Virus record (IMG/VR): IMGVR_UViG_3300037502_002304
Location: 1 to 64,000 of that record
DNA from: a virus
Length of the DNA: 64,000 bases
Direction: 5' to 3' (one strand)
Below, piece by piece: positions 2,877 through 46,922 of this stretch (position 1 is the stretch's first letter; the number at the start of each line of letters is the position of its first letter). The translations under genes were made by a program, and so were the position numbers. The notes beneath the pieces are model-generated. The model searched no databases and was not told where the DNA came from. It was given only the letters and a program-made list of their open reading frames with translations.

Positions 2877-2882
2877 TAAATA

Positions 2883-2914
2883 TTTGTAATCCTCATAAAT
2901 TATTTGTAAATTTG
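2883..2914 (+). promoter_or_regulatory. Bacteroidetes-type promoter for the late (virion) operon
   Basis: TTTG at 2883-2886 and TAAATTTG at 2907-2914 are separated by exactly 20 nt. This matches the Bacteroides primary sigma pattern TTTG (-33) and TAnnTTTG (-7). Transcription would start near 2921, about 10 nt before the ATG at 2931. It lies in the only gap ahead of the long virion operon. It would let the host polymerase read these genes, either instead of or before the phage enzyme. Confidence 0.55.
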
Positions 2915-2930
2915 AAAAAATTTTATATAG

Positions 2931-3569: not shown

Positions 3570-3580
3570 AATAATTTATA

Positions 3581-9357: not shown

Positions 9358-10674
9358 ATGTATGAACTAAATATGTTACCTTTACAGTCACTAGGGGTTC
9401 CCACTTTAAATGTTGGAGGTATAAATAGTAGTGCATTACAATTACAACCAATGAAAACAGCTGCTGCTTCTGGAGCTGCAGGTATTAATCCATTAGCAAT
9501 GGCTGGTAGTTTTTTAGGAAATACTATTCAATCTTTTGGGGATCCTAATAGTCCTAATTATGGTACTAATATAGGGGGTGGGGCTTTAAGTGGTGCAGCG
9601 CAAGGAGCAGCTATTGGTAGTACAGTCCCTGGGATAGGAACAGCTATAGGGGCTGTAGCTGGTGGTCTACTAGGGGGAATTAAAGGACTTTTCGGTTCTA
9701 AACAAAGAGAAAAGCAGTTAGAGGCTAAGAAAAAGGCCAAATTAAAAGCTATGAATACCGCTATTGGTAAGCAAAGATTACAAGAATATGCAGCTAATAA
9801 TACTACATATAATTATGCTCCAACATTTAAATATGGAGGTATGATTCCTTCTTATCCAAATGGTGGGGTTATTAGAGATATTAATCCATCAAGTCCTTTA
9901 GCAATTCAAGCTATGTATTCAGGGTTAAAAGCACCTCTAGACTCTGCATTAGAAGCTAAATTTCCTAATCTAATAGAAATTAGAGCAAATGCCCCACGTA
10001 ATTTTAAAGAAAGAATGGCTTATGCAGATTCTATTATGAAGGCTAATCCTAATATCTATATAGAAGATATTTCAGAATATTTAAACCCTGAACAAATAGA
10101 ACTATTTAAAAAGGCTAGGAAAAATATTTCGGAGAAACAAGATGCAAACTTTTCAGGAACTGGACCTAAATCTGATGCTTATGGTGTAAGAAATTATATA
10201 TTTACTCCTACTCCTACAAGTTCACGTATACAAAAAGAAACTGGTAGAGTACTTGATAAGTATGGTATAGGATATAATAAAGATACTGGAGATTTTTATA
10301 AAATACCTATAAATAATTCAAGTTATAAAAATGGAGGTAGTATTAAGATAAAGCCTTCTAAAAGAGGTACTTTTAAGGCACAAGCTTCTAAAATGGGTAT
10401 GAGTGTACAAGAAGCTGCTACTAAAATTCTTAATGCTCCTAAAGGTAAATATAGTCCTGCCATGAGAAAGAAAGCAAATTTTGCAAAGAATTTTGCTAAA
10501 GCTAATGGAGGGTATTTGGAAGAGACTAGGTATAATCCTGATGTTACCACTTATGCTTCTGGAGGTTCTACTCATGAAACTTCTCCTTATGGAGGTATTC
10601 CAATTGGTAATAAAGGATTAGTTGAAGATGGTGAAGTTAGATATAAAAACTATGTATTCTCTAACAGATTTTAA
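9358..10674 (+). CDS. Internal virion (cargo) protein with Gly/Ala-rich hydrophobic segment
   Basis: 438 residues. Residues about 75-113 are Gly/Ala/Ile-rich (GGALSGAAQGAAIGSTVPGI, then AIGAVAGGLLGGIKGLFGSK), like membrane-inserting regions of ejected proteins. A basic helix follows (KQREKQLEAKKKAKLKA). A C-terminal region (SKRGTFKAQASKMG then SPAMRKKANFAKNFAKANGG) and the ending THETSPYGGIPIG / GLVEDGE are types I associate with crAss-like virion proteins. It probably travels inside the capsid or tail and is ejected with the DNA. ATG at 9373 is an alternative start. Confidence 0.6.
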   Translation: MYELNMLPLQSLGVPTLNVGGINSSALQLQPMKTAAASGAAGINPLAMAGSFLGNTIQSFGDPNSPNYGTNIGGGALSGAAQGAAIGSTVPGIGTAIGAVAGGLLGGIKGLFGSKQREKQLEAKKKAKLKAMNTAIGKQRLQEYAANNTTYNYAPTFKYGGMIPSYPNGGVIRDINPSSPLAIQAMYSGLKAPLDSALEAKFPNLIEIRANAPRNFKERMAYADSIMKANPNIYIEDISEYLNPEQIELFKKARKNISEKQDANFSGTGPKSDAYGVRNYIFTPTPTSSRIQKETGRVLDKYGIGYNKDTGDFYKIPINNSSYKNGGSIKIKPSKRGTFKAQASKMGMSVQEAATKILNAPKGKYSPAMRKKANFAKNFAKANGGYLEETRYNPDVTTYASGGSTHETSPYGGIPIGNKGLVEDGEVRYKNYVFSNRF

Positions 10675-10685
10675 TATTATTTATC

Positions 10686-11651
10686 ATGAATAAATCTAAA
10701 AAACATATTACTTTTGCAGAAAGAGCTCGTAAGATTATATCTAAATATAAAAGAGCTGATTTTGACAGCATTGAAAGAGAGCAAATGGAGAGAGAACTAG
10801 ATGCTCTAGCTGCAGAGCAAGAAGAGTATAAAAGACAGCATGGCATAGAAGATAATACACAAACTATGCAACATGCTAATGGAATTGACTTTAATTATTT
10901 GAATGCAGATTATGATGAAACTCCAGTAGCTATTACTTCTGATATGTTAAATCCTAACAATTATACAGCAACTGCCAGTAATAATCTAGTATCAACTAGC
11001 AGAGGAATGCTGCCTACAGATTCTATTAGTCCATATAAAACATCTATTATTCCCAGTATAGCTTCTGGAGCTATATCTACATTAGGTAATTTATGGATGG
11101 CTAATAGAGCTACTAAAGACTTACCTACTGTTAATTTAGGTAGAGTGTCTCCCTCTACAATCTCTTTAGCTAGAGAGAGAAGTAGAATTCGTAAAGATTC
11201 TAGAGATGCAGCTAGAATAGCTAGAACAAATGCTGCTAAAAATGCTAGAACTAGAGGAGAATACCTTTCTTTAGCTGCTGCTCAAGATGCTGCTATTAAT
11301 GAGGGTACAGCTAAGTCTTTATCAGATTTATATTCTAGAGAAGCTCAATATAATGCTGCAGAGAGGGCTAGAGCCTCTTCTGTTAATGCTGAATTAGCAT
11401 CTAAAGAAGCTTTAGCTAATTATCAGTCTAGATTACAGGCTCAAGCTAATAGAGATGCTTATTTAAGTGCAGCTTTACAATCTGTACCTCAAATGGTGCA
11501 AAATATAGCTGGAATTAGACAGCAAGATGCTTTAATTAATAGCTTAGGACAAGATTATTCTATAGGAATGTATAGAGATCCTAACTTAAATTTCTGGCAA
11601 AGATTAACTACACCTAAACAAATAGTTAGAGTATTTAATTCAAGAGGATAA
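10686..11651 (+). CDS. Internal virion (cargo) protein, Ala/Arg-rich helical
   Basis: 321 residues. The N-terminus is basic and helical (KKHITFAERARKIISKYKRA). The middle has a hydrophobic stretch (SIIPSIASGAISTLGNLWM). The C-terminal half is a very long Ala/Arg-rich helix (SRIRKDSRDAARIARTNAAK and onward), well suited to oligomerise or bind DNA. Such features are typical of ejected core proteins. It sits between two other cargo genes with gaps of 11 and 2 nt. No specific family assigned. Confidence 0.55.
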   Translation: MNKSKKHITFAERARKIISKYKRADFDSIEREQMERELDALAAEQEEYKRQHGIEDNTQTMQHANGIDFNYLNADYDETPVAITSDMLNPNNYTATASNNLVSTSRGMLPTDSISPYKTSIIPSIASGAISTLGNLWMANRATKDLPTVNLGRVSPSTISLARERSRIRKDSRDAARIARTNAAKNARTRGEYLSLAAAQDAAINEGTAKSLSDLYSREAQYNAAERARASSVNAELASKEALANYQSRLQAQANRDAYLSAALQSVPQMVQNIAGIRQQDALINSLGQDYSIGMYRDPNLNFWQRLTTPKQIVRVFNSRG

Positions 11652-11653
11652 CT

Positions 11654-13681
11654 ATGGCAACACCTATTCAATACATACCACAGCCTATATTTAATAATGT
11701 AGGAGTATTACAACAACAATTAGCACAAGATCAACAGAGGTATGCCCAAGCCATGGCTAATCAATTAGCTATGGAAGATGCTTTTGCACAGTTACAAACT
11801 CATGTAGCTGATATACCTTTAAAGAACGAAATACTCAGTGAGTTTCAACAAAAGGTAAAAGAAACTGTTGATCGTTATGGGGGAGATTATGGAGCAGCCT
11901 CTAGAGATTTAGCTAGGTTAGTATCTCAAACTAGACAGAATCCTTTCTTTCAGTTAGCTCCTGAACGTCGTAGATTAGCAGAAGAACAACGTAAACTAAT
12001 GTTGCAACTAGGACCTAATGCTATCTTAGCTAAAGATGTTACATCTGTTCCTTTAAGAGACCCTGAAACTGGAGAGTGGATTAGTCCTGAAGATTTGAAT
12101 TATTCTGTATTAGATCAACGTCAGTATGAAGAATTCTTAAATAGACGATATGGTGTTCTTAGAAATAGAACCACTCCTGGAGAATGGACTAGAAATAGTC
12201 AATACCCATGGATGTTAGAACGTTCTGTATATAAAGGTATACTTCCTGAAGAAGTAGAAGATTACAAAGCTCAGATGAGTGCAGATTTAGCAGCTCAACA
12301 TCCTGAACTTCCAGAAGAATACAGAGAGATGATTGCTGATAGTTATGCTAATCAATTAATGATGGGGTCTGCTAGTGAAAGAATAACTGATCCATTATAT
12401 GCTGCAAGAGCTAAATCTGGAAGCAGTGGTAGTAGTAATATAGGATATATTACTAGAACTATGCCTGGGGAAGTTTACCCAGAAACTAAAGAGGAGATTA
12501 ATAAAAAATGGGCTGATACTGCTAGAACTGTAAGCTTCTATCAAGATTTAAGACAATCTACGGGTACTGATAATATTTCAGATGCTTATAGAACCAAATT
12601 AAAGTCTTTAGGAATAGAGCTTTCTACTGATAAATTAAGAGAGAAAGATAAAAGGGCTCTAAATTCTTTATTACTTTCTGGTATATATGGTGACAAAAAT
12701 TCTGAAAAATATAAATTAGCACAAGAGTTAATGAAATTATATTATACTATTGATCCTGATGGTGGTGTAGCTAAAAGAGAAGATGGTACTTATGGTAGGT
12801 ATGTAGATATCTATTCAACAGGATTAATAGATACAGGTAATTTTGACCCTAAAATTATTAAAACTATATATAAAGTTCTGAATTCTAATGAACAATTAGA
12901 AAAGTTATTAAGGATAAATGAAAATCCTATATTTAATAATTTAGTTGGGCCTAAAGAAGAAGGTAAGCTAAGTCCTGATGAAGCTTCTTTAGTAATGGCA
13001 GATTTTGAAGGTAATAAATATATTACTAATAATAGAACATGGGAAATTCCCGCAGGCTCTACTAACGAAATAACTAATAGTATAGTTAGAAATATACAAG
13101 GGTCATTTAATAAACAAGACAAATATCAGTATTTAGATGAAGATAATAAGTTAAAGAAAGGTAAAGGTAATTTATCAGCATTACTTTCAGATTCTGATAC
13201 TAAAGTAACAAATGCACAAATTCTTCCTCCTAAAGGGCAAATAATCATAAATGCTATAGTAGATGGTGATCCTAGAAAGATTTTAGTAGATTCTACTCAA
13301 TTTAGTGAGCAAACTAAAGAATGGTTAGATACAGCTAAAATATTATCAGATGCTTACTATGATACAGAATCTTTAGGTGATTTAATAACATTTGATAATT
13401 ATATAGTTGATAGTAAAGGTAATAGAATGGCTGTAATAGTTACTAAACAATTTATACCTTCTGATCCTAATCAACCATTTGTAGACGAAAATGGCAACGC
13501 TTTGCCAGGAAAGATAGTTCCTGTAGTATATCAAACTATAGTAGATAGAAATGGTAAAGAAGTTGGGGATAGAGTTCCTACTAGTATAGAAGCTATAAAT
13601 AAACTTATATTAGATCAAATAACTACTAGTTTATTATATTCTGTTGATCCTAAGTCACAAACTTTAGATTTTAATAATTAA
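11654..13681 (+). CDS. Cargo / internal virion protein
   Basis: 675 residues. The N-terminus is Gln/Ala-rich and helical (VLQQQLAQDQQRYAQAMANQ), the middle mixed (residues 100-300), and the C-terminus alpha/beta (PFVDENGNALPGKIVPVVYQ). It starts 2 nt after the previous stop and ends 6 nt before the giant polymerase gene. In crAss-like phages the genes between the muzzle and the RNA polymerase encode proteins packed in the virion and ejected with the polymerase; I infer the same here. No catalytic motif seen. Confidence 0.6.
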   Translation: MATPIQYIPQPIFNNVGVLQQQLAQDQQRYAQAMANQLAMEDAFAQLQTHVADIPLKNEILSEFQQKVKETVDRYGGDYGAASRDLARLVSQTRQNPFFQLAPERRRLAEEQRKLMLQLGPNAILAKDVTSVPLRDPETGEWISPEDLNYSVLDQRQYEEFLNRRYGVLRNRTTPGEWTRNSQYPWMLERSVYKGILPEEVEDYKAQMSADLAAQHPELPEEYREMIADSYANQLMMGSASERITDPLYAARAKSGSSGSSNIGYITRTMPGEVYPETKEEINKKWADTARTVSFYQDLRQSTGTDNISDAYRTKLKSLGIELSTDKLREKDKRALNSLLLSGIYGDKNSEKYKLAQELMKLYYTIDPDGGVAKREDGTYGRYVDIYSTGLIDTGNFDPKIIKTIYKVLNSNEQLEKLLRINENPIFNNLVGPKEEGKLSPDEASLVMADFEGNKYITNNRTWEIPAGSTNEITNSIVRNIQGSFNKQDKYQYLDEDNKLKKGKGNLSALLSDSDTKVTNAQILPPKGQIIINAIVDGDPRKILVDSTQFSEQTKEWLDTAKILSDAYYDTESLGDLITFDNYIVDSKGNRMAVIVTKQFIPSDPNQPFVDENGNALPGKIVPVVYQTIVDRNGKEVGDRVPTSIEAINKLILDQITTSLLYSVDPKSQTLDFNN

Positions 13682-13687
13682 TTTATT

Positions 13688-16600
13688 ATGGCAAAGAGAT
13701 ACAAACTTAAAGATTACACTTTACAGAATATTGACCCTAATACAGGTCTGACAGAAAATATAAATGAATCTTTTAGTAACCCTAATTTAAATTTAGCAAA
13801 TTTTAAATTATCTTCTTATGCTAAGTCTCCTGTAGAAGAAGTAGGAAGGTATTTTCAAGATAGTTCTATATATGATGAAGGTATTTCTTACGATATGGCT
13901 ACCTCTCCTATGGGAATAGCTATGCACCGTCATGAAGAGCAACCTTGGTATGCTTCTCTTGGAAGTGCTTTAAATCAAGGTATAGTTGGTGAAGTTGTAG
14001 GAGGTACTTTAGAAGGTGTAGGGTATCTATTAGATATAGAACAATGGCTTAATTTACTTAGGGGAGAAGAACAAGAGTTTGGTAATTGGCTATCTGATAT
14101 AGGTAAAGATATAAGAGAATGGACTCAAGAGACTACACCAGTTTATACTGATCCTACTAAAGAAGGAGAATTTAGTCCAGAAGATTGGACATGGTGGATG
14201 AGTAGTGTATTGCCTTCTACATTTAGTACATTATCATTAATGATCCCTTCGGGGGCAGCTGTAAAAGGATTATCTACATTAGCTAAAACTGCTGGTGTAG
14301 CATCTAATCTAGGTAAAACAGCTAGATGGGCTACTAAAGGCGTAGCACAAGCTTTAATATCTAGACCATTAGAGTCTATGATGGAAGCCTCTCAGGTTAA
14401 AGATGAATTAATGAATACTTTACCTGGAACAGAAATAGGTACTGAAGAAGCTGATAAAATATATAAGAATTATGGTATACAGTTAAATCCTACAAGATTT
14501 GATACTGATGGTAATCCTGTCTATGAAATAGATAATGATACCGCTAATATAATAGCTGCTAAAGCTGCTGCTAATACTTTTAAGGCTAACTTACCAATGG
14601 TAATACAAGATATTCCACAGTATTTATTGTTAAATGCTCCGTTTGGTAAGGCTACTAAAAAACTTACTATAGATTTAGCTAAGAAAACTGGTCAAGATAT
14701 AACTCCTTTAGTAATAGAAAAAGGAGCAGCTATAGCTAAAGATATATTAGGAGAAGGTTTAGAAGAAGGCTATCAATTTATAGTTAGTGAAAGAGCCAGA
14801 GATATGGCCTTAGCTAGAGCTGGATTAGCAGAATATGAAGATTTAGATGAAGCTATTGGTAGATATTTTAAAAATGGTGAGTTCTGGACTTCAGTAGTAG
14901 CAGGAGCAGCTGGTGCTGGTCTTATGCAGACTGTTGGTAGAACAATTAATAACTCTCTAGTTCGTGCAAGAGGTTTAGAATCTGAAGATGAAGCTCGTGC
15001 TAAAGATATAGATTCTTGGGGAGCACAGATGAAATTTATTAGAGAGTTGATGCAAGCTGCTGAAGCTAACAATAATGAAGAATTATTTAGTCATGTATCT
15101 AAATTAGGTATAGCTGATTTGGGAATTAAATTATCTTCTGTAGGTAATCTAGGACATTTTATTGATGCTATAGATAATTTATCTAATGCTTCTGAAGAAG
15201 ATTTACAAAGACTTGGAATATCTGCAGAAGAAGCAGAATATATGGCTAATAATGCTCCTAATATTATAAAAGATTTACAATCTATAGGAGAACTTTATGA
15301 AAAGAATGTAGATAAATATGATGAACCTTTTGCTCAATTGATTACTAGAGAAGAATTCATGAAAAATTATCTCAATGATAAGGATATTGAGTTAGGTTCT
15401 GCATATGAAGAAACTTTTCAAACTATTCCAAATATTTTAAATCTTTCTGAAACAGGTAGAAAATTATTTGAAAATAAACGAATTATTATACCTGCTTTAA
15501 AGAATGCTATAGAAGAAACTAATAATTTTCTGCAAAAAAAGAATACTTCTGACAATGAGCAATTATTTAAAACTCGTTTAGAAGAGTTAAATGCTCTTTT
15601 AGAAGAAGTCACACAAGAAACTAATGAGTTAGAACAAAGTTACACAGAAGGAGAACGTAAGAATGATAGTTCTTATAATCATGATTCTGTTGATTTAACT
15701 GCGGCTCAAAGTCTTTATCTTAAAAAAGCATATAATCAATTACAACTTAAAAACGCATCTGAAATGGTAGAAAAGATGCGTACTACTGAATGGCAACAGG
15801 AAGCTCTTAAAAAGGCTAAGAAGGCTCAAGAAAAAAATGCTAAGAAGGTTGTCGACGCTGCTGAAACTATTGAAGAAGTTAAAGAAGTTAAGAAGAGAGC
15901 TAAAGGTACTGATGTAGAAAAAGCTGTAAATAAGGCTGTTAAAGAGAAAGCTGCAGAACAAGCTGAAACTTCTAATGTAGATGAGACTCCCACTGTAGAA
16001 TCTACTCCACAGAAAGAAGAAGGTGAAGTAGTATTTTCTTCTGAATATGAAGGAGAACCTACTACTGAAACTAAGCAAACTACTTCATTAGATGAAATTA
16101 TAAAATCAGGTAAGCCTGTTACTGCAGAAGAAGCATCTAATATGGAGCAACCTACTGAACAAGAGGAAGCAGAGCCTACTCCTGCTCAAGAAGTAGAACC
16201 TACTCTTCAAGCTACTCCTACTCAACCTACAGAAGAATCTGAGGAAGAAGGAGAAGTTGTGTTTTCTTCTGAATATACACCTACTCAAGAAGAACCTTCT
16301 GAAGAGCAGACAGAACCTACACAAGAAGAAACTACAGCTCCTTCTGTAGAAGAACTTCAAGCTTCTGCTAGACCTAGATCTACTTTTGCTCAGCGTAGGT
16401 ATGAAGGTAAACCTCATTTATTTTCAGATGAATTAGAAGGACTTACAAACGAATTAGATAAATTTGTTCGTAAAAACTCTCCACAAACTATTACTAATGA
16501 AGAATTAAATTTAATTAATGCTTTTGAAGTAACAACTCCTGAAGAGTTAGATTCATGGTTTGATAGTGTAGCAGATTCTGAAAATGCTGCTAATTTAGCT

Positions 16601-19600
16601 AATACAGTCAGAAATTTTTATAGTAATAGGAATAGTATTACTAAGGCTAAAAAGACAGCTAATCAGCCTCAAAATAGCATTAATTACAAGAAAAATGATT
16701 TAGACCAATCTAATAAACCTGGGGCAACTGACCCAATACCTTCTAGTGATAAAAATGTTAATAAAGGAGCTGATATTGTAGTATCTACTACTGAACAAGT
16801 TACAGGAGTTAAAAGTCCTAGGAGGATAAAAGATTATTATATAGATTCTAATGGTAACTTTAGAGAGAGTAAAAAAGAAGAGACTTTCCTTGCTGTAAAT
16901 GCTTATAATTTCATAGATAGATTTGGATTAGATCGTGGAGATTATAAAGCACAGAGTACTGTTTACTTTGAATTAGATACTAATGATCCTTATAGTAATA
17001 AGGGCATAGAAGATACTGGTATTCAAATAGTAGTATATAAGGATGGTAATCCAGATAATACAAGTACTTCTAATAGAAAAATAATAGGTTTAGTTCCTAG
17101 TACTAGAGGTTATTATAAAGATTTGTATGAGTTTAGAAAAATTCTCTTAGAAGATTTACGTTCTAAACAAGATGGTAAGTCTAGGTATGTAAGAAGTAAA
17201 TACACTTCTAAAATTGAAGGATTTCATACTCAATATATCCAGACTAAAGAGGAAAATTCTCCTCTAACTGTTATTAGAGAAGAACATCAAAAAGATCCTA
17301 GATTTGCTAAGCATGGTGGATATATAATAGGAATTACCAAAACTTCTACTAGAGGAATGACTCTGGAAGTTCCTAAAGCTAATGTTAGTATTAATGGTAC
17401 TTTAGAAACTGAATATCAAGGTCAAGTTATAATAATTACTAAGAATCCATTTATTAACGACGCATTATTAATGCGTGGGTTTGTTCGTAGTTTAAAATCT
17501 TATGAGAGTCTTGGTAAGAAACAGGCAGAAAATGGTTATAAGATACGTCAAAGAATTATAGATTTATTCAGAGCATTACCAGATAATCCTACTAAAAATC
17601 AGATTATAGAGCTAAATAATCAAATTAGACAATATCTAATAGGTAATGTTAGATATGAATCTGGAATTTTAATCTTAGATGATTATTTTAAAGTTAGTAT
17701 ACCAGAAATAAGATATGATAGTTTCGACCAGATAAATGCTTGGTTAGATGGTCTTATTTTTAATATTGATAAAAATAAGATTAATTCTCCAATGCCTGCA
17801 CAATATGACTTTGGATTTGGAGCTCAATCTGGTAAATATAATGAATTAATAAGCGACTTCTTAGTACTAACAATGCCTAAAAATAGGTATTTTGAAAATA
17901 CAGCAGCTATTATTTCTAGGAATTTAGTAGATACTACTGATAATAGTCAAGTAAAAGTTTTAAAGAAAGCTGCTTCTAATATAGTATCTAATATTAAGAA
18001 GTCTAATGATATTAAAGAATTGTCCAAAGATACTAATGTTACTGAAGAAACTCCTGTAGTTACTGCAGAACAATTAGAAGTTGGACAATATGTAGAATAT
18101 CAAGGTACTACTTATATAGTAACTAAATTTAATAAGAATGGCACTATTCAACTATTAAATCCTTTAGATGATAGTGAGAAAGGAAAAGTATCTGTCGCTG
18201 CTAAAAACATTAAGCCTACTAAATTTAAAGGTACTATAGTAGAGTATAGAAATATTAAGTATATAGTAACTAGTAAAGGTCAGATTATTTCTTTGTCTTC
18301 TAATAGAGCAATGAAATGGCCTGAAAATCATGGTACTAGAAGACACATTCTAAGTCTAGCTAATGATGCTGAGTCAGGTAGAGTAGAGCCCCTAGCTTCA
18401 AATAAAGTAGACATTAATCCTACTAGTATTAAAACTACTAAGGCAGTTCCTACTAGTACTAAAGATGCAGCTAGACCTACTAAACCTGTTGAAGCTAAAC
18501 CAACTAGTAAAGTTAGGATTGAACGTAAGAAAGACCCATTTGGTAATGCGGGTAAAAATGCTTTGTTAGGTATGTTTAGGAACAGTCAGAACAAACCTAA
18601 AACTAGACTGGCTGATTCTAGCAAACCTTATACTAAGTGGAATAAAGCACAAGAACTTGCTTGGTTTAAAAAGAACTTCCCTCAAGTACCTATTACAGTG
18701 CTAGATAATTTAAAGAATATAGTAGGTAATGGTAGAGAAGCTTGGGGAGCTTTTCATAATGCTTCTGTATATATAGCAGAAAATGCTGCTTCTGGTACAA
18801 CTTATCATGAAGCTTTCCACGTAGTATTTAACTTATTTTTGAATGAAGAACAACGTAATAATATATTAAAAGAATCTAAATTAACTGAAGAAGAATTAGC
18901 TGATAAATTCTCTGATTATGTAGCGTATAAGGATTTAGATAAATCTTTACCTACTAAAGTAAAAGATTTTTTTAGAAAGTTATGGTTAACTATTAAATCA
19001 TTCTTTACTAATAGTATTTCAGGAGTAGACGAATTATTCTTTAGAATAAATACTGGTTTCTACAAGAATGCTACTATAGATTATGGTGCTTTTGGTTCTA
19101 AAGTACTAAGAACTAAAATTGCAGGTTGGTCTTCTGCTTATACTAAAGATATAGTAGAAAGTATCAACATGCACATATTAACTCAGATACTTCCTGATAT
19201 TAGAGAAGCTAATCCAGAATTATCTAATTTAAGTGATGTTGAATTATTAAATGCTATTAACAACAATCCAGAATATGCTCAATATGGTGGTGGAGTATAT
19301 GCAATTTATAATAAAGTATATAATAACTTAGCAGACTTAGCTGAATCAGAATTTGTTCCTGATGATATACGTGAAAATATATTAGATGCTTTACGGTACT
19401 TTTATAATGAAGATGGTAGTCCTGGTAGTTTGATATTAGAAAGTATCAGAGCTTTAGATTATAATAATGGTATTTCTGTAAAAATAGAAGTAGTAGAAAA
19501 TACTATTGAGGATGAATCTGAAGAAACTACTATAGAAGGTGAAGAAGGTTCTCAATTAGAGAACTGGCAGACTACCTATACTGAAAGAAGTCGTAAAAAT

Positions 19601-22600
19601 AATGCTTCTTATAACATTAAGAAATTCCTACGGTATATAAGACTAGAAGACCAAATAAATGCTATAGGATTACCTAAATTTGTAGATTTTAATGAATTAT
19701 ATGATACACTTCTGAATGATTTAGCAGATTCTACAGATTTACAATCTATGGTTACTTATTTAAAGGATTCTCTTCCTTTCCATCCTGAATATCAACAAAT
19801 CATTGATGAGATTGAAAGAAATCCTCAATTTGGTGCAGAATTCTTCAATGCTTTCCATAATACCCATGCTAAGTATGTTAGCATACTTAAAAGAAATAAT
19901 AACTATGTATTAATGGAATCTAACCGTAAGGGAGTTGTTAATAACATTATTTCTAATTGGAGAAATAGTGTATTAGCAAAAGGTTCAGTACTAGTAGATA
20001 AAGGTAAAGGTAATTATGAAGTTAATACTAATAAAGCTGTAGAGATTAAAAAATCTTTTGATGATATTTTAAGAAAGACTGCAATTACCGATGAAGACTT
20101 AATTAAAGTATCTAATTTATTAAAAGAATTAGGTATTGAATTAGACGTTAGAGTTCTTCAATATGCTAAAAATAATAACTATATTAGAAAGATTTTAGAG
20201 GGAGATAAATCTATTTCTAAGATTATTAATAAGTTTGCAGAAGGTAAAAATCCTTTTGATGAAGAAGCTGGGTTAGATTCAGAAATGGCTTCTATTAGAA
20301 CTTTGGCAACATTAGCTAAGAAGGCTACTCCTTCTTTGTATGAGTCTGCATTTAGAAACGTATCGGGTAAAACTGTATATTCACACTTAGTACCTAACTT
20401 TTTGTCTAAGTTAGTAGCTAAATTGACAGATTCTAATAAGCTGATGTCAGTCATAGAGTTTTATGCTCAAGACCCATTATATCTAAATAATCCTATACTA
20501 ATTACTTTAGGTAACTTAGAATCTGATCCTCTAGAATTAAAAAATGCTTTCGAGGTAGCTATAGTTGATGGTATTATAGAAAATGGTAGTAAGGATTATG
20601 CAAGTATGGATGAGACTGACTATAAGGTGTTTACCTTAAATTCTTTCTTTAACAATGGTAATAAAGATTATTCTTACTATCGAGCTAACGTACTATCAGA
20701 TGCTCCTAATATGGTATTATTTAAATTTAAGAGGTTTAAAGAGGATGAAATAGTCAATTACTTATTATCTTTAGCTTCTGCTGAATATAAGCGTATTCAG
20801 GATGTAAAAGAGTATAAAGGAGAGGGTTATAAGAACTATAGTACAGATGCTAATGGTAACACAGAATCTGGCTATCATATAATGCCTATGTTCAATGGTT
20901 TCAAGGGTGACCCTGCTTCTAAACCTGAACAAGCTAAGAAACTTATTAGAGAGTATCTAGATAATAAGATTGAAGATTATAAAAAAGCTCTGATAAATTC
21001 TGGTGTAGTAACTCTTACTGAAGAAGGAACTGTTGACTTTGAGAATTCTAGATTAGATGGAAGAATTTCAAGAGTTAATTTTGATTCTTTCCTGAAAAAC
21101 TTCTATTATAATGACTACCTTATGAGGGCTTCATTCGGGGTATTAACTGTAGGAGATCCAGCTTATTATAAAGCAGATAAAGGCAGTAATAATAAGATGG
21201 TAGATTATACTAAAAGAGCTAAAGAGATTTACTCACCTAAATATGTACCAGATGTAAGTGCCTCTTATACTGATCCTAAAACTGGGGAAGTAATAAAAGT
21301 TGGTGATAGATACAATACTATTTACCTTAAAGATAAAGAAGCTATAGCTCCTTCTTATGACGATATAGAAGCTGCTTTAAATTCTGCAGTTAAATCTGGG
21401 TTTATTACAGAAAATCAGAAGAAAGCTATAGCTACTATGTATAAAGAGGTTAATTATACTGATGCTCAAGCATATACTACTCTTCCATTCTACAGAAAAA
21501 CTATGATTAGTTTAGGTAGATGGACTGATAGACATCAAGAAGCTTATAAGAGATTGATGGAAGAAAAGGGTACTGCTAATGATATTGCATTAGTTATGCA
21601 ACCTCTAAAACCCTTTATGTTTACTCATATATATGATGATAATTTAGGTAGAATAGTACCTGTACAACATAAGAACAGTGAATTTTTGTTACTACCTCAA
21701 TTAGTTAAGAATAATCCAGAGTTGAAAAAACTACATGACTTTATGATTGAAAATAATGTAGGCACGGCCAACTTTGAATCAGCTGTTAAGACTGGCTTAA
21801 CTAAAGTAATGACTCTGGATAACCTTAATGCTGACAATATTATTGAAGTATTTACAGAAGACAGAGGTATACAGCAAGAAGTTCCTGAACACTTTATAGA
21901 TGAAGAAAACTTATTTGGTACTCAGATAAGAAAGCTTATAATGGCTGACTTAGTTGAAGGAGTAGATTATGTAATAACTCCTCATGGTGAAGAAGCTATC
22001 AGTAAAAAGGCTAACGATCTTCGTAGAATGTATGAAGATATTATCACTCAAGACTTGGCTGAAGCTTTCCAAGAAGCTTATTCTGAGCTTACTACTGAAG
22101 ATGGAGACGTAGACTGGTCTAAGATTCATAATATTTTATTAGATGAAGCTAGGAAGCGTGGTAAAGGTGAACAATTTGAAAAAGCTATTACTTATGATCC
22201 AGTTAAGAATAGATTAAATTTACCTTTATTCCATCCTTTATATGCAAATACTACACAGCAACTTCTCACTTCTATATTTAAGAATAGAGTCACTAAACAA
22301 AAGATTGCTGGTGGGTCATTTGTACAAGCTTCTTCTTATGGATTATCTAGAGAATTAAAATTAGTATTTGATAAAGATAATGAAGGTAATTCTAATAGAC
22401 TTCTTTACGCAGAAGTTATGTTACCTGCATGGACTAAGCAGTTCTTTAAAGACTTTGCTAATCCTGATGGTACTATTGATTTTGAAGATGTTAAACAAGC
22501 TGCTCCTGGATTATTAGATATGGTAGGTTATCGTATTCCTACTGAAGATAAATACTCTATGTTACCTCTTAAAGTAGTAGGATTCTTACCTCCTGAATCT

Positions 22601-25045
22601 GGTGGAACTATTATGTTACCTGCTGAAATTACTACTATAGCTGGTTCTGACTTTGATATTGATAAGATGTATGTTATGATGAAAGCTTTTAGAAGAACTG
22701 CTATAGATCGTAATGCTTTCAGAAAAGACCTTAAAGAATATGCTAAAGCTCATAAGGAAGAATTTAAAGATACAGATTTATCTTATGATAACATAAATAT
22801 AGTATTAGACCAAATTATAAATGATGAACAGGTTCTTAATGATGAAGACTTACCTATATATGATTTTTACGTAGAAAATCGTAGGAAATATATCAAATAT
22901 AGTCCAGTTAAATATGATGTAAATAAGTCTTGGAGTGAACAATCTAAAGCTGCTAGAGATAATGCTAAAATTGATATAATTCTCAGTGTTCTACGTAATC
23001 AAGCTACAGTAGGTAGAATACTTAAACCTGGTGGTTTTGAACATCTTAAAAGTCTTGCAGGACTTATGAGATCTAAAACTGGTGCATCTAAAGAAGCATT
23101 AGATGTATATGATGTTTTATCTAATGATGTAATGGCCATTAGAAATATGGTAGGTAAGCAGTTGGTAGGTATAGCTGCTAACCATAATGCTCACCATGCT
23201 TTAAGACAACATACTAAATTAAGTTTTAAAGATCAGATGCAATTCGATGGTATAGTAGCTAGTAGTCTACATAATAAGTCAGCTTTAACTCAATTTGAAG
23301 TTAAAGGTAATAAATTAGTAAAAGTAGATAGTCCTAATAGATTAGTTACTGACAACTTATCAGAATTCTTAGCTGCTGTAGTAGATAATGCTAAAGACCC
23401 TGTATCAGATGCTATAGGATATACACTAGAAACAGCTGACTTAGTATCAACTATAGTAGCTTTAGGATATGACCCTGCTACTGCTTCTGTATTTGTTAAT
23501 CAGCCTATTATTAAGCATATACAGAAAGAAATGTCTAAGAATCCTAATAAATCTGAAAATACTATTATTAATGAAGTAGCTGAATCTGTTGGAGTAGACT
23601 TAGATGCAGTACAAGATGCTCCTAATATTAATACATTAGAAATGTTTAATGCTGTCGGCACTTCTGAAATAAATAATGACCTGCAGAAAAGAGTGTTAAT
23701 GGCTTATTCTAAATATAGAGAAATGGCTAATGCCATGAATAAGTTAGTACAAGCTACTAAAGCAGATACTACTCCTGTAGGGCCTACATTAGCTGATTCA
23801 GAAGTAATGATGGATTCACGTCAAGATATTACTAGTAAGGCTTTCCCAATAGAAGGAGTATCAGATTTTATTAGTGAATCTGAATTCTCTACTAACTTAG
23901 AGGTAGCCTTCTATAAGTATGGTATTTTAGAGCCAACACGATTAGTTTTGAATAGTTTATTCCCATATTATAATAGGCTATTCTCTGAGGTTAAATATGC
24001 TATTAAAAGTAATACTAAGTATAATAGACTATCAGCTAAGCAGATAAATGAAATCAATAATAAGGTATTGACTTTTGTAATGTCAGGGTTTGACTTCTTT
24101 GATATAGAAGAGGGTAGAAAATTAGTTACTAAGTTACCATTAGCTTTGTTCAAATATATTGAAAGTCATCCTGACCTTAAACAAAATGCTTTGTTAAAAC
24201 GATTAAGATATGAAGCTTCTACTGATAGGATTCCAGTAGATAGATTAGTATTTGATAATACTGGTAGTTTTACAGCAGAACAAAGAGAAGATGTTCAGAA
24301 TGCTTGGGAAGATTTATTAAATAGTACTAATGATGAGTACAGAAGATTAGGATTAGCATTAATTAAATATAGCTTCTTTACTTCTGGATTATCATTTAGT
24401 CCTAATGGATTTTCACAATTAATTCCTACAGATGCTTTCTTAACACATGTTAAGGACTCTAAAGGTATGTCACTTAGTGATTATCTATATAATTCTATGG
24501 ATGGAGATTTGTTTAATTCAGAACAATTTAATAGTTTTGTAGAACAGTTTTATCGTAATAATTATAATAATAGAGCATACGTACCTAGAGTAAATGAAGA
24601 TATGTCTAATGTAGACACTGCAGTAAGAGATAATACTACTGGTAAAACAGTAGGTTTTACTGTTAATATGAATGGTAAAAATGATGATTTTATAGTAAGG
24701 ATTAATAATTTCAAAAGAGCAGTTCCTTATATAGCTCATGAAGATTCTAAAGGTAATATAAATTTATATAGGTTAAAACAAGTTAAAGAAGGTATTGCTG
24801 AATATAGATTAGTAAGTAAATTAGGTATTCCTAATCATGTTCAGGAATATAACTTAAATATGAATGTTCCAGAATCTATGTTTGAGTTTAATAATGTAAC
24901 TATTAAGAGTGAGACTAATGTTAAGGTAGAAGAGAGTAATGTTAAAGAACCTGTACAAGGTCAAAATGTAGATGATTTCCTTAAAAGAGAGGGTATTACT
25001 GATAAAGATATAGATAACTTACCAGATTGTATTGGAAAAAAATAA
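13688..25045 (+). CDS. Giant virion-packaged DNA-dependent RNA polymerase polyprotein with zincin-like domain
   Basis: 3785 residues. The catalytic core is clear: the metal-binding loop DFDID is at residues 2988-2992, inside GSDFDIDKMYVMM. Upstream lie GGSFVQASSYG and VVGFLPPESGGTIMLP, the double-psi beta-barrel surroundings of crAss-like polymerases (type example: Cellulophaga phage phi14:2 gp66). These enzymes are packed in the virion and transcribe early genes after ejection. Other parts: helical N-terminus with hydrophobic segments (about 85-115, 170-215, 398-415); a Glu/Thr/Pro-rich linker (about 760-900) holding two EEGEVVFSSEY copies; an HExxH site (HEAFH, 1707-1711) with a later EEELAD, zincin-like. 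At about 1600 residues above phi14:2 gp66 (near 2200), it looks like a fusion of cargo, protease-like and polymerase parts. No internal stop. Confidence 0.93.
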   Translation: MAKRYKLKDYTLQNIDPNTGLTENINESFSNPNLNLANFKLSSYAKSPVEEVGRYFQDSSIYDEGISYDMATSPMGIAMHRHEEQPWYASLGSALNQGIVGEVVGGTLEGVGYLLDIEQWLNLLRGEEQEFGNWLSDIGKDIREWTQETTPVYTDPTKEGEFSPEDWTWWMSSVLPSTFSTLSLMIPSGAAVKGLSTLAKTAGVASNLGKTARWATKGVAQALISRPLESMMEASQVKDELMNTLPGTEIGTEEADKIYKNYGIQLNPTRFDTDGNPVYEIDNDTANIIAAKAAANTFKANLPMVIQDIPQYLLLNAPFGKATKKLTIDLAKKTGQDITPLVIEKGAAIAKDILGEGLEEGYQFIVSERARDMALARAGLAEYEDLDEAIGRYFKNGEFWTSVVAGAAGAGLMQTVGRTINNSLVRARGLESEDEARAKDIDSWGAQMKFIRELMQAAEANNNEELFSHVSKLGIADLGIKLSSVGNLGHFIDAIDNLSNASEEDLQRLGISAEEAEYMANNAPNIIKDLQSIGELYEKNVDKYDEPFAQLITREEFMKNYLNDKDIELGSAYEETFQTIPNILNLSETGRKLFENKRIIIPALKNAIEETNNFLQKKNTSDNEQLFKTRLEELNALLEEVTQETNELEQSYTEGERKNDSSYNHDSVDLTAAQSLYLKKAYNQLQLKNASEMVEKMRTTEWQQEALKKAKKAQEKNAKKVVDAAETIEEVKEVKKRAKGTDVEKAVNKAVKEKAAEQAETSNVDETPTVESTPQKEEGEVVFSSEYEGEPTTETKQTTSLDEIIKSGKPVTAEEASNMEQPTEQEEAEPTPAQEVEPTLQATPTQPTEESEEEGEVVFSSEYTPTQEEPSEEQTEPTQEETTAPSVEELQASARPRSTFAQRRYEGKPHLFSDELEGLTNELDKFVRKNSPQTITNEELNLINAFEVTTPEELDSWFDSVADSENAANLANTVRNFYSNRNSITKAKKTANQPQNSINYKKNDLDQSNKPGATDPIPSSDKNVNKGADIVVSTTEQVTGVKSPRRIKDYYIDSNGNFRESKKEETFLAVNAYNFIDRFGLDRGDYKAQSTVYFELDTNDPYSNKGIEDTGIQIVVYKDGNPDNTSTSNRKIIGLVPSTRGYYKDLYEFRKILLEDLRSKQDGKSRYVRSKYTSKIEGFHTQYIQTKEENSPLTVIREEHQKDPRFAKHGGYIIGITKTSTRGMTLEVPKANVSINGTLETEYQGQVIIITKNPFINDALLMRGFVRSLKSYESLGKKQAENGYKIRQRIIDLFRALPDNPTKNQIIELNNQIRQYLIGNVRYESGILILDDYFKVSIPEIRYDSFDQINAWLDGLIFNIDKNKINSPMPAQYDFGFGAQSGKYNELISDFLVLTMPKNRYFENTAAIISRNLVDTTDNSQVKVLKKAASNIVSNIKKSNDIKELSKDTNVTEETPVVTAEQLEVGQYVEYQGTTYIVTKFNKNGTIQLLNPLDDSEKGKVSVAAKNIKPTKFKGTIVEYRNIKYIVTSKGQIISLSSNRAMKWPENHGTRRHILSLANDAESGRVEPLASNKVDINPTSIKTTKAVPTSTKDAARPTKPVEAKPTSKVRIERKKDPFGNAGKNALLGMFRNSQNKPKTRLADSSKPYTKWNKAQELAWFKKNFPQVPITVLDNLKNIVGNGREAWGAFHNASVYIAENAASGTTYHEAFHVVFNLFLNEEQRNNILKESKLTEEELADKFSDYVAYKDLDKSLPTKVKDFFRKLWLTIKSFFTNSISGVDELFFRINTGFYKNATIDYGAFGSKVLRTKIAGWSSAYTKDIVESINMHILTQILPDIREANPELSNLSDVELLNAINNNPEYAQYGGGVYAIYNKVYNNLADLAESEFVPDDIRENILDALRYFYNEDGSPGSLILESIRALDYNNGISVKIEVVENTIEDESEETTIEGEEGSQLENWQTTYTERSRKNNASYNIKKFLRYIRLEDQINAIGLPKFVDFNELYDTLLNDLADSTDLQSMVTYLKDSLPFHPEYQQIIDEIERNPQFGAEFFNAFHNTHAKYVSILKRNNNYVLMESNRKGVVNNIISNWRNSVLAKGSVLVDKGKGNYEVNTNKAVEIKKSFDDILRKTAITDEDLIKVSNLLKELGIELDVRVLQYAKNNNYIRKILEGDKSISKIINKFAEGKNPFDEEAGLDSEMASIRTLATLAKKATPSLYESAFRNVSGKTVYSHLVPNFLSKLVAKLTDSNKLMSVIEFYAQDPLYLNNPILITLGNLESDPLELKNAFEVAIVDGIIENGSKDYASMDETDYKVFTLNSFFNNGNKDYSYYRANVLSDAPNMVLFKFKRFKEDEIVNYLLSLASAEYKRIQDVKEYKGEGYKNYSTDANGNTESGYHIMPMFNGFKGDPASKPEQAKKLIREYLDNKIEDYKKALINSGVVTLTEEGTVDFENSRLDGRISRVNFDSFLKNFYYNDYLMRASFGVLTVGDPAYYKADKGSNNKMVDYTKRAKEIYSPKYVPDVSASYTDPKTGEVIKVGDRYNTIYLKDKEAIAPSYDDIEAALNSAVKSGFITENQKKAIATMYKEVNYTDAQAYTTLPFYRKTMISLGRWTDRHQEAYKRLMEEKGTANDIALVMQPLKPFMFTHIYDDNLGRIVPVQHKNSEFLLLPQLVKNNPELKKLHDFMIENNVGTANFESAVKTGLTKVMTLDNLNADNIIEVFTEDRGIQQEVPEHFIDEENLFGTQIRKLIMADLVEGVDYVITPHGEEAISKKANDLRRMYEDIITQDLAEAFQEAYSELTTEDGDVDWSKIHNILLDEARKRGKGEQFEKAITYDPVKNRLNLPLFHPLYANTTQQLLTSIFKNRVTKQKIAGGSFVQASSYGLSRELKLVFDKDNEGNSNRLLYAEVMLPAWTKQFFKDFANPDGTIDFEDVKQAAPGLLDMVGYRIPTEDKYSMLPLKVVGFLPPESGGTIMLPAEITTIAGSDFDIDKMYVMMKAFRRTAIDRNAFRKDLKEYAKAHKEEFKDTDLSYDNINIVLDQIINDEQVLNDEDLPIYDFYVENRRKYIKYSPVKYDVNKSWSEQSKAARDNAKIDIILSVLRNQATVGRILKPGGFEHLKSLAGLMRSKTGASKEALDVYDVLSNDVMAIRNMVGKQLVGIAANHNAHHALRQHTKLSFKDQMQFDGIVASSLHNKSALTQFEVKGNKLVKVDSPNRLVTDNLSEFLAAVVDNAKDPVSDAIGYTLETADLVSTIVALGYDPATASVFVNQPIIKHIQKEMSKNPNKSENTIINEVAESVGVDLDAVQDAPNINTLEMFNAVGTSEINNDLQKRVLMAYSKYREMANAMNKLVQATKADTTPVGPTLADSEVMMDSRQDITSKAFPIEGVSDFISESEFSTNLEVAFYKYGILEPTRLVLNSLFPYYNRLFSEVKYAIKSNTKYNRLSAKQINEINNKVLTFVMSGFDFFDIEEGRKLVTKLPLALFKYIESHPDLKQNALLKRLRYEASTDRIPVDRLVFDNTGSFTAEQREDVQNAWEDLLNSTNDEYRRLGLALIKYSFFTSGLSFSPNGFSQLIPTDAFLTHVKDSKGMSLSDYLYNSMDGDLFNSEQFNSFVEQFYRNNYNNRAYVPRVNEDMSNVDTAVRDNTTGKTVGFTVNMNGKNDDFIVRINNFKRAVPYIAHEDSKGNINLYRLKQVKEGIAEYRLVSKLGIPNHVQEYNLNMNVPESMFEFNNVTIKSETNVKVEESNVKEPVQGQNVDDFLKREGITDKDIDNLPDCIGKK

Positions 25046-25051
25046 AGAGAC

Positions 25052-28000
25052 ATGAGTTGTACATATTCTGATGTAATTAGTGATTTAGAAATTCTCGTAA
25101 GACATGAATTTAGGGGAAATGCCAAGTCTGTTAGATTTGAAGGCATGAAGGCTATAATTAGTTATGGCCCTCAATATCAAGTTAAAAAACGAGATGAGGC
25201 TTATAGAATGGCTCAGAGAAAGTTACAAAAAGTATATGACTTTATAGAAGATAAATTAGGTCCAGCTTTTACAAAAGGGTGGGGCTCTATAGATTCTTCT
25301 AAAACTGATGCCATAGAAGTATATTTAGAAGTTCCTTATTATGTTAGAGAAGCTTATGCTAGGAAAAAAGCTAAGACTTTTCAGAGAGATATAAATTATT
25401 TCATGGGAGACAGAGCCTTAATGGAACAAGAACAAGGCTTAGATGATGAATTATATCAATTATTTACTTCTTCTGGAGAAGCACCTGATGCTAAATTAGA
25501 AAGAGTTCTTATAGAGTTTCTTAAAGAAAATGATATTAATGTTGAGTATGTTAATGACTTAAGAGATCGTAAAGGTATTAGTGCTGCTGGAATATCTTTC
25601 TTAGCAGACAGAGTTATTAAAATAGCTAAGAATAAGGCAGATATTACTACTCTTCCTGAAGAAGCTGCTCACTTTATAGTAGAAATGCTTCGTAGTAATG
25701 AGACTCTTTATAGAGCAATGTATAATTTAGCTAAAAGGTCAGATACTTTTACTAAAGTTTATGAAGAGTATAGTGAAGTTTATAATAATAACGAAGAGAA
25801 GATTGTTAAGGAAACTATGGGTAAAATTCTTGCAGATTATATCATTAAAAGACATAAAAACATGCAGGATTTACCTACCAATAGAAGAAATCTTTTACAA
25901 AGGATTTTAAGGTGGATATATTCATTTTTTGGTAAGACTAAGAGTGAAAAACTTCAGGAGGCTATAGATGATGTTTATGGTGAAATAGCTAATAAGATAT
26001 TTAATAAAACTTTAGAAACTGACCCTACACAGTTAGGGGCTGAAAGAATCGATCATAAAAAGAGTGACCCTTTAGTAGCTGAATTAATGAGTGGCATCAA
26101 TAGGATGTTTAAAAGGGCTGACATATTAGAAGCTAAGAGTGCTGAAGAACAGGATGAAAATAAAGCAGAATCTCTTAGAAGAGCTGCAGCTATGATACGA
26201 TATAATTTGTATACTAAAAGGGAGCCAGAAGCAGCCATTGCTCTCTACTTAGATTATATAGATAATGAAGAATTAAGTATTATTATTAATCAGATTCGTA
26301 AGTTTAGAGAAGACCCTAAGAAAAATAAACTTACTAGTTTTCAAATAAACCGTATTCAAGATATTATAGATGCTAACGAAGCCAGTATATCAGATATTAA
26401 TAGAATACTTAAATGGACTCCAGAGTTTAAGGATATTTATAATAAAGTAGAAGAAAGGCTTAAATCTGCTTTAAATCACTTATCAGAAGCTAAAGAATTT
26501 GTAGATATTCTCAATAGAAATAGGACTCAAGAGATTATTTTAGAAAACAGAGTAGAGGGTAGTAAGTTATCTGTAGAAGATATAGTAAATTCAAGTATAG
26601 GAGATATAGGTTATTTATCTAGATGGTTTGGGCCTTTAAGGACTTCTAGTAATGAAGTCCTTAGAATGGTCTATAATATGGTTGCCAATGTATACAATGA
26701 AACTCATAGAGAAGTTATTTCAGAAGGAAATGAAATGCTTCTCCTTCAAGAAGATTTTGAGAAAGCAGGTTTCAGTGGTAAAGACCTACATGAATTAGAT
26801 GAGAATGGTAAGAAAACTGGTTTCCTTATAGCTGAAAGAAAATGGGGTGAATATTATAAGGCTAGAGAAAAAGTCAGACAAGACTTAATGAAACATTTTA
26901 ATAAAGAAGTATATTCTGATATTATCCCAGAAGAATTAGATGAAGAGGAATTAAAATATTATAATAAGAAGTGGTCTGAATTTTTTAAGAAATATCATAA
27001 GTATGTAGATGGACAATCTATACCTAATCCTCCTATAAATGAAGAGTTTCAGAAGCGAATGAAAAATAAAGCATTTGCTGCTTATTATAATAAAGTTTTA
27101 GAGATTCATAGGAGGTCTAAAGAAATGCTTCCTAGAAAGTATAAAACTGGTATATATGAATGGATGTTACCTCAGATAAGAAAAGATATTATGCAGACTA
27201 TTAAAGACTCTGAAAACCCTCTGTTTAAAGAGTTAAAGTCTCGTATAAAAGAAAACTTTACTATTACTGAAGATGACATCGACTACGGTAGTCAAGACGT
27301 ATTATTAGATATTAACGGTAAGGTAGTTAAAAAAGTACCTGTTCATTACACTAAAAGATTAGAAGATCCTAATCAATTATCTAATGATATTACATCTATG
27401 TATGCTCTCTATTATGAAATGGCTTTAAATTTTAGAAGCCTATCTTCTAGATTAGAAGATATTATGGTTATAAAGAGAGTTATGGGTAGTTCTGTAATAC
27501 GTCCTCAAAATAAGACTGATAATGAAGGTAATAAGCTTGGTTATGAAACAAATGCTTATCAAGCTCTAGAAGACTTTATTAACGCTTATATTTATGGTGA
27601 AGAGAAGAATAAATCTTATATTACTTTACCTAATGGTAAAAGAGTAGAAATTAGTAAACTTGTAGATAAATTTAGGTCATTAGTAAGAAGTAGTAACTTG
27701 TTCTTTAATATCCCTACTATAATAAGTGGACATGTTAAAGGTAGTATAGATTCTAAATTAGAAGATGTTATGGGTTTATATACTACCCAAGAATCTAAAC
27801 TATTTGCAGAAGCTGAATTTGATAGGAATCTGCCTAAAGTTCTCTTAAATGCTGGTAAAAGATATAAAGAAACTAAGATGGAGCATCTATTCATGAGATT
27901 TGGTGTTTCTAAAGATACCAGAGAAATATTTAAGAGACTGGATATGCAAGATAGACTTTCTAGAACTACTTCTGATGACTTATTATATGGTATATATGAA

Positions 28001-28921
28001 GCTTCAGACTTTAGAGTTAAAGGTAAGTTTGCATTAGCTGTAATGGACAATTTTAGGCTTGTAGACGGCAAATTTATCACTAAAGCACAGTTTGATAGAC
28101 TAATCCATAAAAAGGGTCGTAAATGGTCTGATTTTAAAGATAAAACCTTATATAATGCTTATGATTTTAAGAATAATAGATTGATAGTTAAGCCTGAATT
28201 TAAGAAGTATGTTACTAAAGATATAGAAAATAGAGTAGCTAATATCATAGCAGATAGAACAGCCTCATTAGAAGGAGTTCCAGGAAGGTTAGACAGAGCA
28301 CAAATATATAGAGGAATGTGGGGTAGGATGTTAATGCTTCACAGAGGTTGGATGATTACTGGTGCTGCAGATAGGTTTAAAAAGGGTGGAATTAACTATC
28401 AAACAGGTGAATTTGAAGAAGGTTATTATCGTACTGTAGGTAGAGTTATAGCTAAACTGATTAATGATAAAAATGTAATTAAGTATAAATTATCAGTATG
28501 GGAAACTCTTAGTGAATATGAAAAGCGTAATGTTCGTAAATTCATGACTGATATGCTTGTTACAGCAGGATTTATGATATTAGCTAGAATAATTCAAGGA
28601 ATAGCAGATGATGATGACGATGATTGGGAATTGCAATATCTAGCATATCAATTTAATAGAATTGAGTTAGAACAAGCTGCATTCTTTAATCCACAAGAAA
28701 TTCCTAATATTTTGAATTCTCCGTCTGCAGCTGTTAGTACTTTTGAAGACTTACAGAACTTATTTTTTGCTATATGGGATAATGATGAGATTGAATATGG
28801 AGCTTATGAAGGAATGACCCAACGTGAGAAATTTCTCATCAAAAGAACTATATTAAAGAATATTTGGGAACTTCCTTATATTAAGGATAAAAATAAGTAC
28901 ATTAAGACTCAGATTCTATAA
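25052..28921 (+). CDS. Large cargo protein with degenerate zincin-like region
   Basis: 1289 residues, last gene of the virion operon. Residues 203-207 read EEAAH in LPEEAAHFIVEML, where an intact zincin would have HExxH. The following ILADYI and FFGKTKSEKLQEAIDDVYGE echo the order seen after HEAFH in the preceding polymerase protein. The rest is charged and helical. Near the C-terminus there is a hydrophobic helix (FMTDMLVTAGFMILARII) and a run of six Asp (1186-1191). It is probably ejected with the polymerase or contributes to it; in some relatives the polymerase is split over several neighbouring genes. Starts 6 nt after the previous stop. Confidence 0.65.
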   Translation: MSCTYSDVISDLEILVRHEFRGNAKSVRFEGMKAIISYGPQYQVKKRDEAYRMAQRKLQKVYDFIEDKLGPAFTKGWGSIDSSKTDAIEVYLEVPYYVREAYARKKAKTFQRDINYFMGDRALMEQEQGLDDELYQLFTSSGEAPDAKLERVLIEFLKENDINVEYVNDLRDRKGISAAGISFLADRVIKIAKNKADITTLPEEAAHFIVEMLRSNETLYRAMYNLAKRSDTFTKVYEEYSEVYNNNEEKIVKETMGKILADYIIKRHKNMQDLPTNRRNLLQRILRWIYSFFGKTKSEKLQEAIDDVYGEIANKIFNKTLETDPTQLGAERIDHKKSDPLVAELMSGINRMFKRADILEAKSAEEQDENKAESLRRAAAMIRYNLYTKREPEAAIALYLDYIDNEELSIIINQIRKFREDPKKNKLTSFQINRIQDIIDANEASISDINRILKWTPEFKDIYNKVEERLKSALNHLSEAKEFVDILNRNRTQEIILENRVEGSKLSVEDIVNSSIGDIGYLSRWFGPLRTSSNEVLRMVYNMVANVYNETHREVISEGNEMLLLQEDFEKAGFSGKDLHELDENGKKTGFLIAERKWGEYYKAREKVRQDLMKHFNKEVYSDIIPEELDEEELKYYNKKWSEFFKKYHKYVDGQSIPNPPINEEFQKRMKNKAFAAYYNKVLEIHRRSKEMLPRKYKTGIYEWMLPQIRKDIMQTIKDSENPLFKELKSRIKENFTITEDDIDYGSQDVLLDINGKVVKKVPVHYTKRLEDPNQLSNDITSMYALYYEMALNFRSLSSRLEDIMVIKRVMGSSVIRPQNKTDNEGNKLGYETNAYQALEDFINAYIYGEEKNKSYITLPNGKRVEISKLVDKFRSLVRSSNLFFNIPTIISGHVKGSIDSKLEDVMGLYTTQESKLFAEAEFDRNLPKVLLNAGKRYKETKMEHLFMRFGVSKDTREIFKRLDMQDRLSRTTSDDLLYGIYEASDFRVKGKFALAVMDNFRLVDGKFITKAQFDRLIHKKGRKWSDFKDKTLYNAYDFKNNRLIVKPEFKKYVTKDIENRVANIIADRTASLEGVPGRLDRAQIYRGMWGRMLMLHRGWMITGAADRFKKGGINYQTGEFEEGYYRTVGRVIAKLINDKNVIKYKLSVWETLSEYEKRNVRKFMTDMLVTAGFMILARIIQGIADDDDDDWELQYLAYQFNRIELEQAAFFNPQEIPNILNSPSAAVSTFEDLQNLFFAIWDNDEIEYGAYEGMTQREKFLIKRTILKNIWELPYIKDKNKYIKTQIL

Positions 28922-46920: not shown

Positions 46921-46922
46921 AG

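Follow-up and report, generated by a model that had tools for sequence, protein, structure and literature searches.

The locus raises two questions: whether a crAss-like phage makes its virion RNA polymerase (vRNAP) as one chain with a peptidase and a long N-terminal part, and what the peptidase might be doing there. The window covers the initial 64 kb of a virus record 90 kb long and contains an ATG-started open reading frame of 3785 codons on the plus strand (13688..25045), uninterrupted under the standard genetic code. At 29% GC, the probability of an open frame of this length arising by chance is ~1e-135. Open reading frame, homology, and motif evidence divide the 3785-aa chain into an N-terminal part, a zincin-like metallopeptidase domain, and a vRNAP. 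A first-pass annotation of this DNA had described the same fusion in one uninterrupted frame, and the observation of a single fused chain is confirmed. The interpretation that accompanied it is partly supported.

Several relatives have two genes at this position, as would be expected if the assembly had joined two neighboring genes here through a frameshift or an overlooked stop. The chance that the frame is such an artefact is nonetheless negligible. An independent IMG/VR contig (L007) carries a full-length homologous frame of 4111 aa with the same fusion, 43–59% identical, and contigs L029, L030, and L093, from the same clade as the window chain, have a fused frame too. A third contig, L008, shows the N-terminal part and zincin as in the window chain before its frame leaves the contig end. 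Across the zincin–polymerase junction, divergence from L007 at codon positions 1, 2, and 3 is 0.31, 0.16, and 0.46, which indicates that the frame is under purifying selection through the junction. The fused state of L007 and this pattern of codon-position divergence rule out an assembly error and answer the objection of a splitting frameshift that the first-pass annotation had named as a danger to its reading.

Identity to L007, the nearest relative, varies along the chain. The zincin is the best-conserved stretch (71%), followed by the polymerase core (60%) and the helical N-terminal part (48%), with the linker the most divergent internal segment (32%). L007 also has two large inserts relative to the window chain. 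One, at ~1486–1640 of the L007 chain, reads YYHGGPKG...GKGFYFT, has a weak match to DUF3990, and looks ADP-ribosyltransferase-like by eye. The other (~3105–3235) lies inside the polymerase core shortly upstream of the DFDVD motif. A PHROGs search returned no family for the 3785-aa chain, and a DNA-level search of named phages found nothing near; in its distant mode, it recovered only ~150–170 nt around DFDID at 68–75%.

The polymerase module is identified by homology to a known structure. In a phmmer search against the PDB there is one match, 6vr4_A (the phi14:2 vRNAP), at E = 2.5e-44 over residues 2470–3715, a span that includes the region around residues 2700–3100 where the polymerase had been expected. 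A 38-sequence profile of the segment 1601–2434 matches 6VR4 residues 122–792 (E = 8.3e-54), and a Foldseek search with the AlphaFold model of that segment has 6VR4 as its sole significant match (E = 3e-12). The profile match places the beginning of polymerase homology near residue 1831, ~25 residues past the end of the zincin. The module, a homologue of gp50/gp66, therefore extends over residues ~1831–3715 (19178..24832); the first-pass annotation had recognized a crAss-like vRNAP correctly and had supposed a shorter one. Its placement of the DFDID catalytic aspartate loop at residues 2988–2992 (22649..22663) also stands, the loop forming part of GSDFDID (2986–2992), the DxDxD catalytic motif expected of a crAss-like two-barrel vRNAP. 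Alignment of the core to 6VR4 implies that the chain contains two double-psi beta-barrels. Membership among the N4-type vRNAPs, which are T7-like single-subunit enzymes, is ruled out by the match to 6VR4, a two-barrel enzyme.

The zincin-like metallopeptidase domain occupies residues 1647–1808 (18626..19111), as assigned by homology, motif, and profiles. It carries HEAFH at residues 1707–1711 (18806..18820), in which H1707, E1708, and H1711 are invariant, and an invariant glutamate, E1735 (18890..18892), which is proposed as the third zinc ligand. These four residues are the only invariant columns across 35 homologous domains, and they are among five invariant columns in the 38-row alignment of residues 1601–2434. 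An HExxH motif with a glutamate 24 residues on has the appearance of a working zinc site, with E1735 as the presumptive third ligand. In crAss001, cr85_1, cr128_1, and Dulem virus 41, the homologous domain stands at the C terminus of a separate gp47-type protein (E 5e-35 to 7e-41). Matches to named peptidase families are marginal, with Tox-MPTase4 at E 2.4e-4 and 21.5 bits, under the cut-off of 25, and the profile comparison with Zmp1/Pro-Pro endopeptidase (PPEP) at E 0.02. Foldseek of the two-domain model of residues 1601–2434 (zincin plus the N-terminal part of the polymerase) gave no peptidase match and nothing beyond 6VR4. Motif, conservation, and these marginal profile matches together support the zincin-like domain that had been proposed, and the domain is most likely an active peptidase. 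In L008, a segment with a second HExxH (HELLHS, at ~1869 of its chain) is inserted directly after the zincin.

The N-terminal part (residues 59–760; 13862..15967) is homologous by blastp to the N terminus of crAss001 gp47 and to Intestiviridae proteins annotated as "RNAP-associated protein fused to zincin." An AlphaFold2 prediction of residues 1–760 is almost all helix (mean pLDDT 71, pTM 0.44), in agreement with the long helical region first described, and a fold search of this model against the PDB gave no match. The hydrophobic segments also attributed to this part are weak, the best 19-residue Kyte–Doolittle window scoring 1.28, below the usual transmembrane threshold. A low-complexity linker follows at residues 761–900 (15968..16387), and its description as Glu/Thr/Pro-rich fits a composition in which E, T, P, and Q make up 48–68% of residues. 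The middle region (residues 901–1640; 16388..18607), where L007 has a large insert, is without an assigned domain. By analogy with what is thought of the N-terminal domain of the N4 vRNAP, the N-terminal part and linker most likely form an ejection or anchoring module.

The genes around the giant chain, all on the plus strand, place it in a recognizable block. The order is a crassvirus muzzle (tail) protein (5298..9248; Pfam PF25731, E 8e-176), a C1-type ejection protein of 438 aa (9358..10674), two genes conserved in L007 and L008 that encode 321 aa (10686..11651) and 675 aa (11654..13681), the giant chain, and a separate gene for a third RNAP-associated protein of 1289 aa (25052..28921) that is homologous to crAss001 gp49 (E 9e-65) and phi14:2 gp65 (E 9e-18). 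With the muzzle family, portal and major capsid protein PHROGs, and the vRNAP block, the virus belongs to the Crassvirales; the top match of the portal is phi14:2, at 38.7%. The C terminus of the 438-aa protein resembles crAss001 cargo C1 (gp45; E 2e-14), and the protein has a Gly-rich hydrophobic segment at 90–111. The C1 homologue being a separate gene, the idea that this cargo lies within the fused chain is ruled out, contrary to the first-pass annotation. By homology, the chain is crAss001 gp47 and gp50 read through.

The same modules are packaged in different ways across the order. In crAss001 (Steigviridae), all three are present as gp47, gp50, and gp49, with the window polymerase 30.6% identical to gp50 and the zincin 29.5% identical to gp47, but they are three separate genes and gp47 is on the strand opposite gp49 and gp50. 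In phi14:2, the gene order is the same as in the window and the polymerase gp66 (PDB 6VR4) is homologous to residues ~1831–3715, but it is flanked by separate genes for gp67 and gp65. The Intestiviridae (p-crAssphage gp44/gp45, crAss002, jaberico, and ctbg_1) do have a giant fused vRNAP of 4070–4407 aa; there, however, the fusion joins the catalytic and downstream proteins, while the N-terminal part and HExxH domain sit in a neighboring, separate protein. Phage N4 gp50 (Schitoviridae), the best functional analogue, is similar in layout only: it is ejected and functions as a single chain of ~3500 aa with a membrane-inserting N-terminal domain, a low-complexity linker of ~100 residues, the RNAP, and an HExxH domain, in that order (PMC12633501). 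Its polymerase is the unrelated T7-like type, and its HExxH domain comes after the polymerase rather than before.

Closer counterparts of the window layout exist. The Suoliviridae (delta crAss-like) phages cr114_1, cr4_1, cr60_1, and cr50_1 have giant vRNAP frames of 4272, 4491, 4494, and 4774 aa in which a zincin with HEA(F/W)H lies upstream of DFDID in one frame and the downstream RNAP protein is separate. These frames stay open only when TAG is translated, here as Gln, a requirement that the window gene does not share, and their core identity to the window chain is only ~23–28%. The cultured Flavobacterium phage Fpv3 also has one giant chain, gp32, of 4287 aa, in which ~2400 residues precede the core of the polymerase, and the next gene encodes ~1600 aa; gp32 is annotated as a virion structural protein and differs from the window chain in having DYDID in place of DFDID and no zincin detected by HMM. 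The claim that known members are about 2200 residues long or split over several genes does not hold, given that the fused Suoliviridae chains are already in GenBank, that the cultured Fpv3 has its own giant chain, and that vRNAP genes reach ~6000 aa according to a review (PMC10136315). Fusion of crAss-like vRNAPs to large proteins has also been noted (PMC10770324). Judged from these frames, the zincin–polymerase fusion is not new and is already present in many crAss-like phages. The longest polymerase chain seen among the chains here, in L044, is 6057 aa and has three HExxH motifs.

A search with the window chain and L007 gave 72 IMG/VR loci, a sample that includes a few duplicates or near-duplicates and is skewed toward relatives of the queries. 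The zincin is in frame upstream of the polymerase core in 49 of them, and 37 of these 49 also have a long N-terminal part (at least ~1150 residues ahead). An in-frame zincin was not detected in 19 loci, and 4 could not be assigned. Such a sample shows that the fusion is widespread among the sequences recovered, not its true frequency. The distance from the end of the zincin to the start of the polymerase core is 577–958 aa in the 49 loci with both in frame. In cr108_1, the frame would likewise run from zincin through polymerase but for an intron-like interruption. This interruption (L016:20719-21010) lies within the catalytic DxDxD codons, and cr116_1 seems similar. Disruption of the catalytic DxDxD motif has reportedly been seen in zeta crAss-like phages before.

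Where the chain is divided, it is divided on either side of the zincin. The split falls after the zincin in crAss001, cr85_1, cr128_1, and Dulem virus 41, the last with the zincin protein and polymerase as adjacent collinear genes separated by a 32-nt gap. It falls before the zincin in L041, L076, and L079, where the N-terminal part is a separate upstream gene and the zincin stays on the polymerase. With the gene divided at either position in relatives, the single-chain state is probably dispensable. The constant position of the zincin, its near-invariant active site, and the gene splits on both sides may be new; no description of them was found in the literature searched, in which the founding papers on crAss RNAPs (Yutin 2018; Drobysheva 2021) were represented through later papers and GenBank annotation.

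The phylogeny does not sort the two layouts cleanly. In a 21-row polymerase tree, the window and L007 (100/100) are sister to gut Steigviridae with split genes (99/98), and phi14:2 falls apart from this grouping. Two alternative topologies were rejected: a clade of the window, L007, the Steigviridae rows, and Dulem 41 that includes phi14:2 and leaves cr108_1 out (p-AU 0.0008), and a single clade of all fused rows, which would represent a single origin of the fused layout (p-AU 6e-32). In an 85-row tree (hmmalign alignment, FastTree, midpoint rooting), the root and long branches of which are unsure and the sampling biased, each side of the deepest fork contains fused rows, and the split rows form a small number of nested groups. 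This pattern would fit an ancestral fused state followed by several splits, as a suggestion only.

Considered as a whole, the window chain is probably a crAss-like single-chain vRNAP with a peptidase, predicted to be ejected from the virion. The basis for this reading is the homology of each part, a fused frame that relatives conserve, and the conserved active-site motifs of polymerase and peptidase, with packaging, ejection, and refolding modeled on relatives. By that analogy, the chain would be synthesized late, stored in the capsid beside the portal, and threaded through the tail at least partly unfolded after the C1-type ejection proteins; in the host, it would refold, and the polymerase would transcribe early genes without the host RNAP. 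In crAss001, gp47, gp49, and gp50 are present in virions, and cargo is thought to cross the tail partly unfolded (PMC10172136). The polymerase and the zincin-like domain share one chain, and their co-injection as a polyvalent protein (Iyer 2017) is predicted.

What the zincin does within this ejected chain is where the readings diverge. No other part of the chain is as constrained as this domain, which has a near-invariant active site, lies between the N-terminal part and the polymerase wherever it is present, and is bordered by splits on both sides, a layout suggesting that it separates the two modules or couples them in some other way. Separation in the strict sense would make the chain a true polyprotein, cut by the zincin beside itself at assembly or after ejection to free the N-terminal part and the polymerase. 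The placement of the domain directly between the modules, ending ~25 residues before polymerase homology, and its invariant active site would suit such a role; the natural splits just after (crAss001 and Dulem 41) and before the zincin (L041, L076, and L079) indicate that the separate pieces work, and autoprocessing by zincin-like peptidases has been proposed for N4-like vRNAPs (Iyer et al. 2017; PMC5512222). The relatives in which processing might be visible nevertheless show no sign of it. Gels of crAss001 virions, which have the same zincin, show bands of 150, 270, and >300 kDa (PMC6235969; the bands are not individually assigned to proteins in the text), close to what intact gp49, gp47, and gp50 would give at 154.5, 262.5, and 276.9 kDa (PMC10172136), and recombinant full-length N4 vRNAP, also with an HExxH domain, shows no degradation (PMC12633501). 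A zincin HMM detected no such domain in the upstream proteins of phi14:2 (gp67), DAC15, cr106_1, and cr111_1, which means that processing is not general. Self-cleavage, one form of the cutting that the first-pass annotation had raised, is less likely than not for the window chain.

Alternatively, the zincin could be an injected effector acting on a host target and riding whichever vRNAP chain is convenient. It is on the N-terminal part in some lineages, on the polymerase in others, and undetected in some phages; it has weak similarity to toxin-type metallopeptidases, and effectors with peptidase activity recur among injected polyvalent proteins (PMC5512222). Its constant position between the modules and similar spacing in divergent phages speak instead for a polymerase- or ejection-linked role, and the effector reading is a credible one that falls short of being favored. 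A broader proposal combines two claims: that the N-part–zincin–polymerase chain is the ancestral and commonest crassviral state, with crAss001, phi14:2, and p-crAssphage as later splits, and that the zincin is a built-in maturase freeing the polymerase from the ejection module in the host. As a joint claim it is improbable. The window gene itself is ordinary for its order, and the split layout of crAss001 and phi14:2 should not be taken as typical; comparison with relatives makes the question of zincin function testable.

Elsewhere in the window, a block of replication and metabolism genes includes an RtcB RNA ligase gene on the minus strand (40042-41253; E 1e-65). Farther along on the minus strand (45496-48752), an Amidoligase_2 gene (E 1.8e-9) stands beside a glutamine-amidotransferase-like gene (GATase_6, E 2.4e-6), possibly a phage-borne pair that modifies peptides or the cell wall. 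At L010:11067-14366 (record 71067-74366), a terminase large subunit of 1099 aa contains an insert resembling an intein (LAGLIDADG; Hom_end_hint, E 1e-15); inteins in crAss-like TerL proteins are already known.
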